Source: Burkholderia multivorans ATCC BAA-247
GTDB lineage: Bacteria > Pseudomonadota > Gammaproteobacteria > Burkholderiales > Burkholderiaceae
Assembly (NCBI RefSeq): GCF_000959525.1
Contig: NZ_CP009832.1
Span: 2,666,001-2,730,000 of the forward strand
Reading direction: 5' to 3'
DNA: 64,000 nt
Shown: piece after piece, positions 26,656 to 30,914 of the stretch
Position numbering within the stretch: the first letter of the stretch is position 1
Layout: every line of letters starts with the position of its first letter
Notes under the pieces: generated by a model
Seen by the model: the letters and a program-made list of their open reading frames with translations, nothing else
Told to the model about the DNA's origin: nothing
Databases searched by the model: none
Translations under genes and position numbers: made by a program

Positions 26656-26957
26656 TGGGTTCACTAATCAATCTGCCGGGCGTCGCTGCCGGCCGCATCG
26701 ACGACGTACCATTCTTCCAGTCCCCCGCTCACGCAATCCGTCTGCTGCGGCAGCATCGGGCCTGTACTGATGCCGGCGATCATGGTGCGATATCGATCTG
26801 GCGCGCAGATGACGGGAAGTGGAACTGCCTGTTCAGCCGACGTCACATTGACATCGATCATTCAGCCTTCGATTACAAGAAGGACGTGCGCGTATGGCTC
26901 GACGCGTGGCATCCGAAAATTTACGGCATGGCCGCCCGAGCAGGGGAAAGTGAATGA
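26652..26957 (+). CDS. Phage protein of unknown function
   Basis: A 101-residue aromatic-rich protein (HGAISIWRADDGKWNCLFSR, DYKKDVRVWLDAWHPKIYGM) with GGAG just upstream and 4-bp overlaps on both sides. The spread of Trp and His suggests a folded nucleic-acid-interacting protein, but nothing is diagnostic. Confidence 0.6.
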   Translation: MMGSLINLPGVAAGRIDDVPFFQSPAHAIRLLRQHRACTDAGDHGAISIWRADDGKWNCLFSRRHIDIDHSAFDYKKDVRVWLDAWHPKIYGMAARAGESE

Positions 26958-27184
26958 GCCTGCTGACCCGCGCATACATTCTGGAAAAGTACGGCCCCCG
27001 CATGACACTGGCGCAGCTCGCACAGCTTCTGCTCATGTCAGAAGGGACAATTCGCAACCAGATCAGCGCCGAGACATTCCCTATCGCGACATACAAAGAG
27101 GGAGGCGCTAGGTTTGCACCCTACGACGCAGTGGCGGACTATCTGGATGCGATGTCGACCCAAGCTCGCCTCAAGGCTGCGTAG
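26954..27184 (+). CDS. Small HTH protein, excisionase/PrtN-like
   Basis: A 76-residue protein with a clear HTH (MTLAQLAQLLLMSEGTIRNQ) followed by strands and DAVADYLDAMS, resembling excisionase and pyocin activator PrtN-type regulators. As the last gene of the rightward early operon before cargo and integrase, it could be the excisionase directing integrase at the att site, or a late-gene activator. Confidence 0.65.
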   Translation: MSLLTRAYILEKYGPRMTLAQLAQLLLMSEGTIRNQISAETFPIATYKEGGARFAPYDAVADYLDAMSTQARLKAA

Positions 27185-27239: not shown

Positions 27240-28094
27240 TTATTCCGGCTGATAGAGAAGATTCTTAACTTCGTCGCATCGACCGAACCACTTACATCGC
27301 ACTCCCTCGAATGCAGACCGCGCTCGTGCATCATCGACCGCTGCAATAGCGGTCCACTGAACAAACATCAAGTGACCATCCATCTTCTTCGCAAGTACTC
27401 CGCGATCAAGGTATCGCAGAATGACGAGCTTCGGCAGCACATCCTTATTCGATAGAAATATCGTCGCGGATGGCTTCTCTTTTAGGTTGGCGATCGCCCG
27501 AGCGTCGCCCGCAACATAGGACACTGCGACAACAACCGGCACCCAGACGAAGATCCAGCCATACTTGGTCACCCACGGAGCACCGTTATTCGGCAATAGC
27601 CTTGCGGAAAATGTGAGCCACGCAATACCCACGAACACCATCATCTGGCCATAGTATTGACTTCCAGACCATACGAATGAACCGATCCCTATTGCGGCCA
27701 TTACGATCACGAATATGCTTGGAGTATGCGCGATGAAGGCGATGCATCGCCAGACGACGTTTGAGTTCTTCGCCCCCGCCAATGCTTGTCGCCTTATCTC
27801 AGCCGGATCCCGCCAACCGTCTATTCGACGAGTGAAAAGATGCTGTATTACCGACCCCAGCATGACAAATCCTAAGGCCGGTGCCCATATAACGGCGGAC
27901 CTCGCGTGATCAGTCAACGAAGTTGGAACTTGCGACATTTCGAGTCCCAGCCGCGAAAAGTACGCCACGTCAAATATAACCGAGCACGGAAGGACGAGCA
28001 TGGCCAACAGCGTCATGACGCTTGACATGCGCTCAAGAGACGATGGCCCCTCCGCCTTAACAGTCATCTGGGGGCTTTCGATCACTTCACTCAT
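27240..28094 (-). CDS. Multi-helix membrane protein, cargo of unknown function
   Basis: A 284-residue protein with about five transmembrane segments (near residues 28-50, 66-86, 115-140, 145-163 and 175-192) and a soluble C-terminal domain of about 90 residues (SATIFLSNKDVLPKLVILRY, GVLAKKMDGHLMFVQW). It is AT-richer than the phage core (29 of 60 GC in line 27601-27660) and convergent with the early operon. It shares with the 7463-8197 protein the N-terminal helix-loop-helix pattern and the small C-terminal domain, so the two may be distant relatives. Membrane effectors of this sort occur in phage-exclusion systems; that is inference only. Confidence 0.7.
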   Translation of the reverse strand: MSEVIESPQMTVKAEGPSSLERMSSVMTLLAMLVLPCSVIFDVAYFSRLGLEMSQVPTSLTDHARSAVIWAPALGFVMLGSVIQHLFTRRIDGWRDPAEIRRQALAGAKNSNVVWRCIAFIAHTPSIFVIVMAAIGIGSFVWSGSQYYGQMMVFVGIAWLTFSARLLPNNGAPWVTKYGWIFVWVPVVVAVSYVAGDARAIANLKEKPSATIFLSNKDVLPKLVILRYLDRGVLAKKMDGHLMFVQWTAIAAVDDARARSAFEGVRCKWFGRCDEVKNLLYQPE

Positions 28095-28200
28095 CCCCGA
28101 CCTCCTTTCCTGTCTTTATCCGCGTGACCGAACTGCCGTCACGGCAACGCAATTGCACTTACGACACAAGCATGACCGACAATCGCGTGGCTAGCGATGC

Positions 28201-28234
28201 AAAACGCCCCAATCACATAGCCGCGATTGGGGCG
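28201..28234 (-). terminator. Intrinsic terminator of the TPR-HEPN operon
   Basis: CGCCCCAATC (28205-28214) pairs perfectly with GATTGGGGCG (28225-28234); TTTTGC follows on the minus strand. It lies 20 bp after the HEPN-like stop and separates that pair from the membrane protein gene. Confidence 0.85.
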
Positions 28235-28254
28235 CTCCGTATAACCGCCAACAC

Positions 28255-28641
28255 TCAGGGATTGCTTGCCTGATGCACCACAGCAAAGAACTGGTCAGCC
28301 TGCGCCTCGATAGACGGGCAATTCGCAATCAGGTCAGTCGCATCGGCCTGCGAAAAATCCTCGTCCAAGAAGTAGTCTGCGCGTGTTCGCACTTTCTTCA
28401 TGTCTTGCAAGCGGTATGCAAGTGAACGGCCTTTTAGCCCTTGTGCCTTGAGCCGCTCACCTAAGCGCTCATGCTCTCCTAAAACAAAGTTGCTTGGCGG
28501 CAAGCAGGCATCTGCAACTTGAAGCACTTTGTGAAACATCGCGTAATACCCGCGAGAAGCACCTGATCGCCACTCACATTCGCTTCCGCCATTCGCCATG
28601 GTGGCCGCGAGTGCTTCGATGTCCTTGATTCCGATACTCAT
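28255..28641 (-). CDS. HEPN-like protein, second gene of a coupled pair
   Basis: A 128-residue helical protein. The pattern EWRSGASRGYYAMFHKVLQV (residues 23-42) and MKKVRTRADYFLDED (near residue 80) match the UPF0332/HEPN family seen in toxin-antitoxin and defence loci. The canonical RX4-6H ribonuclease motif is not obvious; the equivalent position reads RTRADY, as in many UPF0332 members. Its ATG overlaps the TPR-like stop, implying a stoichiometric partner. A terminator follows. A toxin or sensor role is inference. Confidence 0.7.
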   Translation of the reverse strand: MSIGIKDIEALAATMANGGSECEWRSGASRGYYAMFHKVLQVADACLPPSNFVLGEHERLGERLKAQGLKGRSLAYRLQDMKKVRTRADYFLDEDFSQADATDLIANCPSIEAQADQFFAVVHQASNP

Positions 28642-29420
28642 CTCGTCACCGACACGAACTGGCCATCAAAGCGATAGGAACTTACAGGTCGACACGCAAA
28701 CGTCACCATACCTGGCGCCGGATCGTCGAACCTCTCACACAGCGCCTCTGAAATTGCCCAATTTAGCTCGCCGCACCGCTGCGCCGAGTCAGTGACATAC
28801 AGTTCCATTCTCAGACCAGCGTCACCGAAGTCTTCCATCATGGTTTGCCTGATAGTGCCACCATGCGCCCGAACCGCGCCGACAGCTGTCTCAATCAACT
28901 CTTCCCGCATTTCTCGCGTCGCGCCGTGAGCCTCGGCCAAAGCGAGCAACCGCTTCATGGAGTCAACTACAGGGTCCGAATCACTGACCTTGAATCTGCC
29001 AATCATGTCGAGTGCCCCCTCGAAATCGAGAATGGTTCGATAGAGGTTTACCATCCCGCTGATTGCCGTCGTGTCGTTTGCGCTGACCAACGGCTCCATT
29101 TGCTGACAAACCTCTCTGGCTAGACGGCACTCAGCGACCGCCGCGAGCAATCCCATTCCATTTGCCAACACCATCTTGTCACGAGGCGACAGCTTGAGCG
29201 CCGCACGAACACTGCGCACGCACTCCGTATGGTTGCCCTGAATGACCGCGATCGCAGCAAATGATAGCCATGCGAACGCAGGATCCCCGACGCCGCTTTC
29301 CAATGCAGCGCGCGCCTGCCGTTCATAGCGTTTTACGAGCAAGTCGTTACTTTGCGCGTAGGCCGCCATTCTCAACAGATCGTTGATGGCCTGATTTACT
29401 GCTTCTAACGGTTGCGTCAC
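28638..29420 (-). CDS. TPR-like helical-repeat protein, first gene of pair with HEPN
   Basis: A 260-residue protein (MTQPLEAVNQAINDLLRMAA...). Residues about 30-160 are a helical-repeat (TPR-like) array: RQARAALESGVGDPAFAWLS, RSVRAALKLSPRDKMVLANG, REVCQQMEPLVSANDTT and LYRTILDFEGALDMIGRFK. The C-terminal ~80 residues form a different, strand-containing domain (FGDAGLRMELYVTDSA, MVTFACRPVSSYRFDG). TPR proteins commonly sense or scaffold partner effectors. It is coupled to the HEPN-like gene by a 4-bp overlap and lies next to the integrase, a usual cargo slot. Confidence 0.65.
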   Translation of the reverse strand: MTQPLEAVNQAINDLLRMAAYAQSNDLLVKRYERQARAALESGVGDPAFAWLSFAAIAVIQGNHTECVRSVRAALKLSPRDKMVLANGMGLLAAVAECRLAREVCQQMEPLVSANDTTAISGMVNLYRTILDFEGALDMIGRFKVSDSDPVVDSMKRLLALAEAHGATREMREELIETAVGAVRAHGGTIRQTMMEDFGDAGLRMELYVTDSAQRCGELNWAISEALCERFDDPAPGMVTFACRPVSSYRFDGQFVSVTR

Positions 29421-29525: not shown

Positions 29526-30623
29526 TCAATCGATCGGACCCACGATCCGCCGGCCCTTTTGGGACACCTGGTCCGGCCGCAGGTTCGTGTACCTCTTCAG
29601 ATTACGCCAATCCTTGTGACCCGTCACCGCTGCCACCTCAGGAATATCCCACCCGCCCTCGAAGAGCGCACTCGTCGCTTCGTGCCGCAGATCGTGCAGC
29701 CGAAGGTCGACGATGCCTTTATCGACGCACGCCAGCTTGAAGTACTTGCTCGCCGTACTCTTGTCGAACCGGAAAATGTACTCGTTAGGATGTGGGTCGA
29801 TCTTCGGGTCCGCCTTGCGCTTCGCCTCGTATGCCGGCGGCACCGGATATCGCGCCTGACGCAATAGCACTTCGAGCGAGTCGCCGATCAGCGGCACCCA
29901 CTCGTCGTTGCCCTTCTTCTGCCGTGGATGTTTGCGATCGCGGACGAGCGCGAGCCGGCGCTCGACGTCGAGATCCGACCACGTCAACCGAAAAAGCTCG
30001 CCACGCCGGAATGCGCTTTTCATCGCCACGCGGATGACATCCGGCACCGCCTGTTCGCGCTCCGGATGTTCCGCAAACCACTCGAAGATCTTCACGATCT
30101 CTTCACGGGTCGGCCGCCGATCGCGATGCTTCCCCGGCCCGATGAGCTGCAGGTGATCGAGGGTCGGCCGCGCAATACTCGGAGCGTGCGGCAACCGCAG
30201 GTCGAGCAGCGAGGCCATGTGTTTGTACACCGTCCCGAGCTTGGATATGTCCATGTCGATCGTGTACTGCCCTGCACCCTCTTTCTTTCGTTCCTGGGCA
30301 AACTTGACCAGCCGCTTGGTCGATAGCTTCGCCGCCACCTCATCGTCAAAGTGACTTTCCAGCCGCTTGAGCATGTAGTCTTCGTTCGACTTCTCGGCGA
30401 CCGGCCGGCCGGAATCGTTGCGTGCGTTTCGATACAAGCGCACCAGCTCGCCGACCGTGATCGTCTGCTCGTCGACGGCGGCTTGCCCCTTGTCGATACC
30501 GCCCTCGATCTCTCGCGCCCATGCTTCGGCCGCGCCCTTGGTTCGAAACGTCTTTGCTATACTCTGTCCCCGCCGGCGGACTTGAGCACGCCAGCGGTCG
30601 CCGATCTTGAGGATCGAAGCCAT
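29526..30623 (-). CDS. Tyrosine-type phage integrase
   Basis: A 365-residue site-specific recombinase. ATG 30623 has GGGG 6 bases upstream; the N-terminus (MASILKIGDRWRAQVRRRGQ) is an arm-binding domain, residues about 55-140 a core-binding SAM-like domain, and 165-360 the catalytic domain with Arg206/207 (AFRRGELF), His310-Arg313 (HDLRH), His336 (TGHKDW) and nucleophile Tyr345 (LKRYTNLR). All catalytic residues are present, so excision should be possible. It reads away from the tRNA, with arm-type repeats upstream. Confidence 0.96.
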   Translation of the reverse strand: MASILKIGDRWRAQVRRRGQSIAKTFRTKGAAEAWAREIEGGIDKGQAAVDEQTITVGELVRLYRNARNDSGRPVAEKSNEDYMLKRLESHFDDEVAAKLSTKRLVKFAQERKKEGAGQYTIDMDISKLGTVYKHMASLLDLRLPHAPSIARPTLDHLQLIGPGKHRDRRPTREEIVKIFEWFAEHPEREQAVPDVIRVAMKSAFRRGELFRLTWSDLDVERRLALVRDRKHPRQKKGNDEWVPLIGDSLEVLLRQARYPVPPAYEAKRKADPKIDPHPNEYIFRFDKSTASKYFKLACVDKGIVDLRLHDLRHEATSALFEGGWDIPEVAAVTGHKDWRNLKRYTNLRPDQVSQKGRRIVGPID

Positions 30624-30642
30624 GAAACACCCCGTTTGTGGA

Positions 30643-30704
30643 CTGTAGCAATGCGTCATCCACATACGCTGCTACAAGGTCGATTTGTAGCAGAATTGTA
30701 GCAG
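30643..30704. repeat. Integrase arm-type site cluster
   Basis: TTGTAGCAG occurs at 30685-30693 and 30696-30704, its inverse CTGCTACAA at 30669-30677 and a partial copy CTGTAGCA at 30643-30650. Short direct and inverted repeats beside an integrase gene fit arm sites of attP. They also overlap the integrase promoter region, so may allow autoregulation. Confidence 0.55.
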
Positions 30705-30839: not shown

Positions 30840-30914
30840 CTCCCCGTAGTTCAATGGATAGAACAAGCGCCTCCTAAGCGCTAGATACAGGTTCGATTCC
30901 TGTCGGGGGGACCA
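30840..30914 (+). tRNA. tRNA-Arg (anticodon CCT)
   Basis: A 75-nt cloverleaf: acceptor CTCCCCG pairs with CGGGGGG (one T-G pair), D-arm GTTC...GAAC, anticodon arm AGCGC-CTCCTAA-GCGCT with anticodon CCT, T-arm ACAGG-TTCGATT-CCTGT, and encoded CCA (30912-30914). It reads Arg AGG codons. The prophage abuts its 5' side. Confidence 0.96.

Follow-up and report, generated by a model that had tools for sequence, protein, structure and literature searches.

A HEPN–TPR gene pair compared with described HEPN systems

Several described HEPN systems resemble, each in part, a pair of overlapping genes, here termed A and B, that we analysed in a 64,000-nucleotide stretch of Burkholderia multivorans ATCC BAA-247 (contig NZ_CP009832.1, positions 2,666,001 to 2,730,000; hereafter the window, whose own coordinates are used throughout). 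The HEPN-MNT system (HepT-MntA, a type VII toxin–antitoxin system; PADLOC PDC-M05) shares with it a small HEPN gene, an overlapping preceding partner, and the HEPN fold. However, the partner in HEPN-MNT is a nucleotidyltransferase, where here it combines a TPR part with an alpha-beta-beta-alpha-beta domain, and the Rx4-6H motif that HEPN-MNT carries at the end of helix 3 is kept in only 16 of 150 non-identical A-paired homologues of B. The HEPN protein of type IX retrons (retron-Kva2; PADLOC HEPN_IX) likewise has no canonical motif; defence depends on its residues H64, R122, and Y40-42, and when the retron is triggered tRNA-sized RNA falls, less markedly with the dead mutant as well (PMC13405049, a preprint; here and below, this paper, PMC3710099, and PMC13092281 are cited from extracts). 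Unlike such a retron, the pair in the window is flanked by an integrase gene and a gene for a probable membrane protein, and neither a reverse transcriptase nor a winged-helix gene was seen beside it (noncoding RNA was not looked for); we therefore rejected assignment to type IX retrons.

AF0298/UPF0332 proteins (HEPN-T, PF05168) and AbiV stand close to B in their match to the structure 2hsb, in having D in place of the classical H, and in an alternative conserved histidine within the helix 2-3 insert. The 2013 survey of HEPN proteins reports that AF0298-like HEPN-T proteins and AbiV lack the H of Rx4-6H, proposes the second conserved H of the helix 2-3 insert as an alternative active site, and in the extracts used here describes no TPR-type partner for them (PMC3710099). 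A HEPN gene beside a helical-repeat gene is found in the LA2681 family (in an operon with TPR) and in AbiU2 (in an operon with Sel1 repeats); unlike B, both keep Rx4-6H (PMC3710099, Table 1), and we set them apart by description and not by sequence. HEPN defences borne on prophages already exist, as in Tha of S. aureus prophages; no overlapping TPR partner is mentioned for Tha, or for HepS of the Gifsy-1 prophage, in the material consulted, which included no paper on HepS. The component parts are already known, namely HEPN-T with an alternative site and, in LA2681, a TPR gene alongside the HEPN gene (PMC3710099, Table 1), and a literature search returned, among the matches listed, no paper on this HEPN–TPR pair as a unit. 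The DefensePredictor study tested 94 E. coli units, of which 42 were protective, with HEPN domains in 4 of the 31 members of one group and TPR among the abbreviations of its Fig. 4 (PMC13092281); the HEPN–TPR pair could be among the systems validated there.

We interpret the pair as a toxin/inhibitor cassette of two genes that moves as cargo on phages and small plasmids, in which B would be a HEPN RNase and A its inhibitor and sensor, and we assign this interpretation a probability of about 60%. It rests on the fixed-order pairing of the genes with the partner upstream, the correlated distances of the A and B proteins, near-invariant residues in a diverse family, the parallel offered by the retron-Kva2 HEPN and the HEPN_IX matches, the differing positions of the pair in different phages, a variable slot in E. 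coli prophages, and a small Klebsiella plasmid. The features on which the argument draws, all on the minus strand, are as follows.

28638-29420, minus strand: gene A, 260 aa, GTG start; TPR-like helical repeat and C-terminal alpha-beta-beta-alpha-beta domain, probable inhibitor/sensor
28932-29420, minus strand: TPR-like part of A, residues 1-163; helices 4-20 to 150-164 (AlphaFold2 secondary structure; TPR-chain profile matches)
28641-28931, minus strand: C-terminal domain of A, residues 164-260; helices 169-185 and 213-230, strands 190-197, 203-209, and 239-245 (AlphaFold2)
28638-28641, minus strand: ATGA overlap, the TGA stop of A with the ATG start of B; translational coupling
28255-28641, minus strand: gene B, 128 aa; HEPN protein of AF0298/UPF0332 type, probable RNase toxin
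28471-28473, minus strand: codon for H57 of B, a histidine that may serve an alternative active site, at the start of helix 56-65
28387-28389, minus strand: R85 codon of B, at the classical HEPN position, with D89-Y90 after it
28201-28234, minus strand: intrinsic terminator downstream of B, from sequence and folding energy

Genes A and B form a conserved coupled unit

A and B are a conserved coupled unit, found together more often than chance would give. Relatives of B were gathered from phages, plasmids, viral contigs, and genomes, and for 198 of the 249 HEPN matches the immediately upstream open reading frame (ORF) on the same strand matches an iterated profile of A. That profile, which was trained on upstream ORFs, matches 207 of 8,934 ORFs of at least 50 aa in all (overlapping loci counted more than once): 199 directly upstream of a HEPN gene and eight elsewhere. 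The eight off-site matches, among 8,735 other ORFs, serve as a control for profile drift, and six of them are pieces of broken copies (L021-L023 and L166-L168). After clustering at about 90%, A accompanies 136 of 184 HEPN relatives, its frequency following the E-value of the B match (112 of 120 below 1e-20, 22 of 50 between 1e-20 and 1e-10, and 2 of 14 among weaker matches). The coupling of two genes overlapping by ATGA had been claimed by a sequence-only reading of this DNA, and both ORFs and their overlap are present in the window as it described; that reading had also named absence of co-occurrence as grounds for giving the claim up, and the pair clearly recurs across genomes.

The arrangement is that of a type II-like toxin–antitoxin system, with adjacent, mostly overlapping, co-inherited genes and the partner first; a partner upstream is the usual order of antitoxin and toxin (PMC3710099). 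Among 138 non-redundant pairs, 98 overlap, 38 of them by exactly 4 bases (starts were chosen mechanically). Distances among the A proteins and among the B proteins are strongly correlated over 93 pairs (Mantel r = 0.757; none of 2000 permutations was as high, the top value being 0.070), and the nearest neighbour is the same in A and B for 48 of the 93. Of 100 eligible pairs, 92 joined the window pair in these 93 rows (alignments A6 and A7); the eight left out were one identical copy and seven pairs with an odd or short A. We rejected chance ORFs on the conserved pairing and the conserved residues.

Where A is not the partner, other arrangements appear. The ORF upstream of the HEPN gene at one locus (L214) has 255 aa and does not match the A profile, and a different upstream gene of 92-210 aa is present in 32 other cases, mostly Planctomycetota, with a 4-base overlap in 15 of the 32. 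The family profiles also reach classical MNT-HEPN loci (the MNT motif was judged by eye), which make up the weaker matches of the B profile. For the window pair we rejected MNT-HEPN proper, as the partner of B is not MNT: A in the window has no nucleotidyltransferase match in Pfam, one of 93 homologues matches TUTase at 0.0043, and comparison of the C-terminal domain of A with an MNT set of only two sequences gave hhalign probabilities of 1.8-3.3%.

B is a HEPN protein with a likely alternative active site

The assignment of B to the HEPN/UPF0332 proteins, also proposed from sequence alone, is upheld by structure prediction and by family profiles. The AlphaFold2 model has a HEPN fold (mean predicted local distance difference test score, pLDDT, 96.0), and 2hsb is its best match in both sequence and fold (E 4.7e-8 for the B family profile). 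Window B by itself has no Pfam match; PF05168 (HEPN-T/UPF0332) is matched by 35 of 93 family members at E <= 0.01, the best at 2.4e-6. Together, these results support B as a HEPN protein of the AF0298/UPF0332 branch. HEPN_IX of PADLOC is matched by 40 of the 93 members at E <= 0.01, and the Kva2 HEPN chain 36ht gives a weak match (profile 21-85, chain 30-91, E 0.067). The ranges of that match, taken alone, would place Y32/Y33 and H57 near Y41/Y42 and H64 of Kva2, with R122 outside it.

At the classical place, where the second long helix (68-90) ends, R85-x3-D89-Y90 is found in the B family. An Rx4-6H motif starting at R85 is missing in 134 of the 150 paired homologues introduced above, and window B is without it. 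The statement of the sequence-only reading that RX4-6H is absent thus holds for the classical position and fails for the protein as a whole, since an R30-x6-H37 string (SRGYYAMFH) lies within helix 2. In a family whose median identity is 27% (93 rows), H57 is conserved in 149 of the 150 homologues, R85 in 148, D89 in 147, and Y90 in 148; R25 is kept in 149 and E21 in 147, both being part of some of the search patterns used to collect B relatives. R30, Y32/Y33, and H37 are equally constant, a constancy partly selected because their letters belonged to search patterns. In the model, H57 begins helix 56-65, which separates the two long helices. The B family shows the AF0298-type combination of D for the classical H and an alternative conserved H. 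The likely active site of B, judged from this conservation, is the alternative set H57/R85/D89/Y90 and not the classical one. The related suggestion that the activity may differ from that of classical HEPN RNases stands in so far as the classical motif is missing; the family does keep a His/Arg set of the kind proposed as the active site of AF0298-like HEPN proteins.

The same missing motif could be read otherwise, with B binding RNA without cutting it and A modulating B, the pair then tuning lysogeny or host genes. Inactive HEPN domains of the MtlR type have been suggested as RNA binders (PMC3710099), and repressor and anti-repressor families are among the nearest flanking genes in some contigs. 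Against such a regulatory pair stand the near-invariance of H57, R85, D89, and Y90, a plasmid that carries the pair without other phage genes, and several phages in which its position is unrelated to a lysogeny switch; we regard it as quite improbable.

Gene A joins a TPR-like part to a recurrent C-terminal domain

A had been described from its sequence as a helical-repeat protein with a separate C-terminal domain, and the AlphaFold2 model (pLDDT 92.8) bears this out, with TPR-like helices followed by a distinct domain. The TPR match of window A in Pfam falls below the cut-off (18 against 26.2 bits), while the A family profile and the A model both match TPR chains, which identifies the repeat; the VIA rows for A span mostly residues 1-209, and the C-terminal fold was barely tested by them. 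Retention of proline at residue 4 in 85% of 93 aligned A proteins supports the GTG start assigned to the gene.

The C-terminal domain recurs in partners that have no TPR part. An alignment of six shorter Pseudomonadota partners of 98-173 aa (L028, L029, L249, L250, L252, and L253) matches it with an hhalign probability of 95.5% (E 1.4e-8); taken singly, just L028, L029, and L250 matched A. From these profile comparisons, the C-terminal domain seems to be the constant partner of this HEPN branch, to which the TPR part was added. Given that constancy, we infer inhibition for the C-terminal domain, which probably binds B, and sensing for the TPR part. Neither the C-terminal domain nor the small partners have a credible solved relative by sequence.

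A further comparison concerned the Planctomycetota-type partners, which match the C-terminal domain of A with hhalign probabilities of 9.5-45% (P 0.003 to 0.0002), against a best P of 0.19 in 30 column-shuffled controls. Eight Planctomycetota loci (L186, L187, L188, L193, L205, L208, L211, and L222) encode small proteins with a D-P-E motif, each overlapping its HEPN gene by 4 bases. These proteins, 103-157 aa by longest ORF, contain neither TPR nor MNT and represent a separate family of HEPN partners, for which sequence comparison likewise gave no credible solved relative.

The pair is spread across phages, plasmids, and genomes

Within the genus, B occurs in 3 of 65 genomes, namely the window's own and two with diverged copies (G018 and G032), each of which has an upstream A gene (L003 and L004). 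In a class-level sample of 369 genomes including its own, 13 have a B match at 1e-8; four of these adjoin an MNT gene by motif, the B profile being unspecific there. Full-length A lies beside B in three genomes (L246-L248) and a short A-type partner in L250. A genome search with the A profile returned mainly ordinary TPR proteins (matches in 236 of 369 genomes), and the full-length matches alone were used; they place A in 4 genomes of the sample, 3 of them with B. Searching the whole collections with the single window protein gave one identical viral contig and no match in the genome collection, and against phage records the window pair had no DNA match and A no protein match either. The nearest named relatives of B, at 49-54% identity, are from Candidatus Burkholderia symbionts (records near the window may be left out). 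In these symbionts and their unnamed kin (L021-L023 and L166-L168), the copies are split into several open pieces, and the pair is thus decaying there.

Phage-borne copies occupy differing positions. In Pseudomonas phage PG1 the pair separates the tape measure gene from DNA-circularisation genes; elsewhere it lies close to the phage end (R656), about 3 kb ahead of the lysis genes (Klebsiella phage Chronis), or adjoining replication gene A (a P2-like Vibrio phage). In ST405-OXA48phi1.3, where B is annotated as two pieces, a single annotated gene stands between the pair and the tape measure. Plasmids of Vibrio, Acinetobacter, and Klebsiella also carry the pair, which makes up two of the five annotated genes of Klebsiella plasmid pKPHS5 (3,353 bp). 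Another Klebsiella plasmid (L014; NZ_MZ475701.1, 6480 bp) is apparently a head-to-tail dimer of a 3.3-kb plasmid, with two copies of the pair. Genes flanking the viral-contig copies matched, among the PHROG families listed (150 of 274 ORFs scanned; best 25 of 200 families), integrases (10 of 150), tail proteins, anti-repressors, repressors, and a head protease.

Because the genes are phage-carried, with some copies inside late gene clusters, they might instead be counter-defence or host-takeover factors of the phage, and not a defence of the lysogen. The plasmid copies and the toxin-like layout speak against this, and TPR–HEPN is not known as an anti-defence pair; we consider such a role very unlikely.

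Whole cassettes are swapped in one E. coli prophage slot

The slot lies among baseplate genes just before a spike gene, and 349 of 5,426 E. coli genomes match parts of the surrounding prophage stretch; only 2 of the 5,426 match at least 80% of the stretch including one allele of the pair. We read 11 slots (L262-L272), picked non-randomly from the 349 matching genomes. Seven hold the pair, in three alleles that share 19-32% identity in A and 27-37% in B, next to a spike protein that is 97-100% identical. The remaining four contain a YafO-family pair, a DUF4282 gene, a DUF2335 gene, or no annotated gene. Of the three pair types, one is found in 33 of the 5,426 genomes. The pair looks like swappable cargo, and the exchange of whole cassettes while the flanks stay nearly identical points to strong and shifting selection and away from a virion role.

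A virion or tail-assembly role would suit the several copies that lie among tail or baseplate genes (PG1, ST405-OXA48phi1.3, and the E. coli prophages). Yet sister E. coli prophages fill the same slot with other genes or none annotated, on which ground we rejected a virion protein, and the window pair lies beside an integrase gene, with other copies on plasmids; the role is largely refuted, and the least probable of those we weighed.

The slot bears equally on a plain addiction module, in which B would be a toxin and A an antitoxin selected solely through loss of the element, the TPR part having no sensing role. Small plasmids carry the pair, one E. coli slot is common to it and a YafO-type pair, and partners without a TPR part exist, all of which fit addiction. 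However, the TPR part is usually kept (A has 200-300 aa in at least 100 of the 138 non-redundant pairs), and the strong divergence of alleles in one slot looks more like immunity cargo. We judge plain addiction unlikely.

Proposed mode of action and points that weigh against it

If the pair is the toxin/inhibitor cassette that we favour, B would be a dimeric HEPN RNase, probably directed against tRNA or other host RNA, with an alternative active site composed of H57 and R85 from both subunits together with Y32/Y33. A, made first, would bind and block B through its alpha-beta-beta-alpha-beta domain, and its TPR part would respond either to infection, most likely by sensing a phage protein, or to the element being lost. 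B would then be released and growth would stop, with abortive infection or post-segregational killing as the outcome. The pair would in that case act as a defence or toxin–antitoxin module, as the sequence-only reading had suggested.

Several observations weigh against this interpretation. B occurs without A in Yersinia phage YP3, no upstream ORF is present at L116, L026, and L233, and A occurs without a B match in one genome (G273, locus L261). Neither A nor B of the window matches any PADLOC model, and up to 8 of 93 family members match one PDC-M05B (MNT-HEPN) model, so that the retron match is not specific. PADLOC matches in the flanks are few (13 families, each 1 or 2 of 118 flanking ORFs, in a scan of 118 of 158 collected ORFs compared without a background set); flanking defence genes are not notably frequent and lend defence no positive support. 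The link between the C-terminal domain of A and the Planctomycetota partners is only suggestive, as it fails in some subsets: the six shorter Pseudomonadota partners give hhalign probabilities of 0.7-1.8% against the Planctomycetota-type partners (two of these 0.2%), and the C-terminal domain gives 0.3% against the non-planctomycete subset.

A more far-reaching version, to which we give somewhat less than even odds, is that the pair represents an unnamed, widespread phage and plasmid immune cassette in which an alternative-site HEPN RNase is held by a small alpha-beta-beta-alpha-beta domain with no nucleotidyltransferase. Phage-borne versions would have added a TPR sensor, and the exchange of diverged alleles as whole units in one prophage slot would fit selection of the sensor by whichever phages the lysogen encounters. 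Were this so, phage-borne immunity would gain a mobile HEPN system whose inhibitor is of a new kind, with the effector (B), the inhibitor domain (C-terminus of A), and a candidate sensor (TPR part of A) separated in two short genes. The natural TPR-less versions and the three swappable alleles make the signal-reading part directly testable in E. coli.

In Yersinia phage YP3 (L009:3389-4000), the lone HEPN gene is preceded by a gene that duplicates its own neighbour in tandem almost perfectly, which looks like the trace of a recombination event that deleted A.

Surroundings of the pair in the window

The pair sits in a prophage, marked by an integrase gene, a tRNA-Arg gene, and terminase, baseplate, and tail-fibre genes elsewhere in the window. 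The integrase gene (29526-30665) precedes the pair, A following directly after it, which agrees with the integrase-proximal cargo position noted from sequence. A promoter scan found none. The perfect intrinsic terminator attributed to its downstream end was recovered, with a 10-bp stem (28205-28214/28225-28234) and TTTT at 28201-28204 on the minus strand; the folding energy of 28180-28262 has z = -5.05, with none of 200 shuffles equally good. A pattern scan with a loop limit of 3-8 did not list this terminator.

Beyond the pair lies an excisionase-like gene (26954-27184), and between the two a 284-aa probable membrane protein is encoded at 27240-28094 on the minus strand; it has no match in Pfam, PHROGs, PADLOC, or NCBIfam and is a possible second cargo gene. 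On the plus strand, a tRNA-Arg (CCT) gene at 30840-30914 adjoins the integrase gene and is a likely attachment site.
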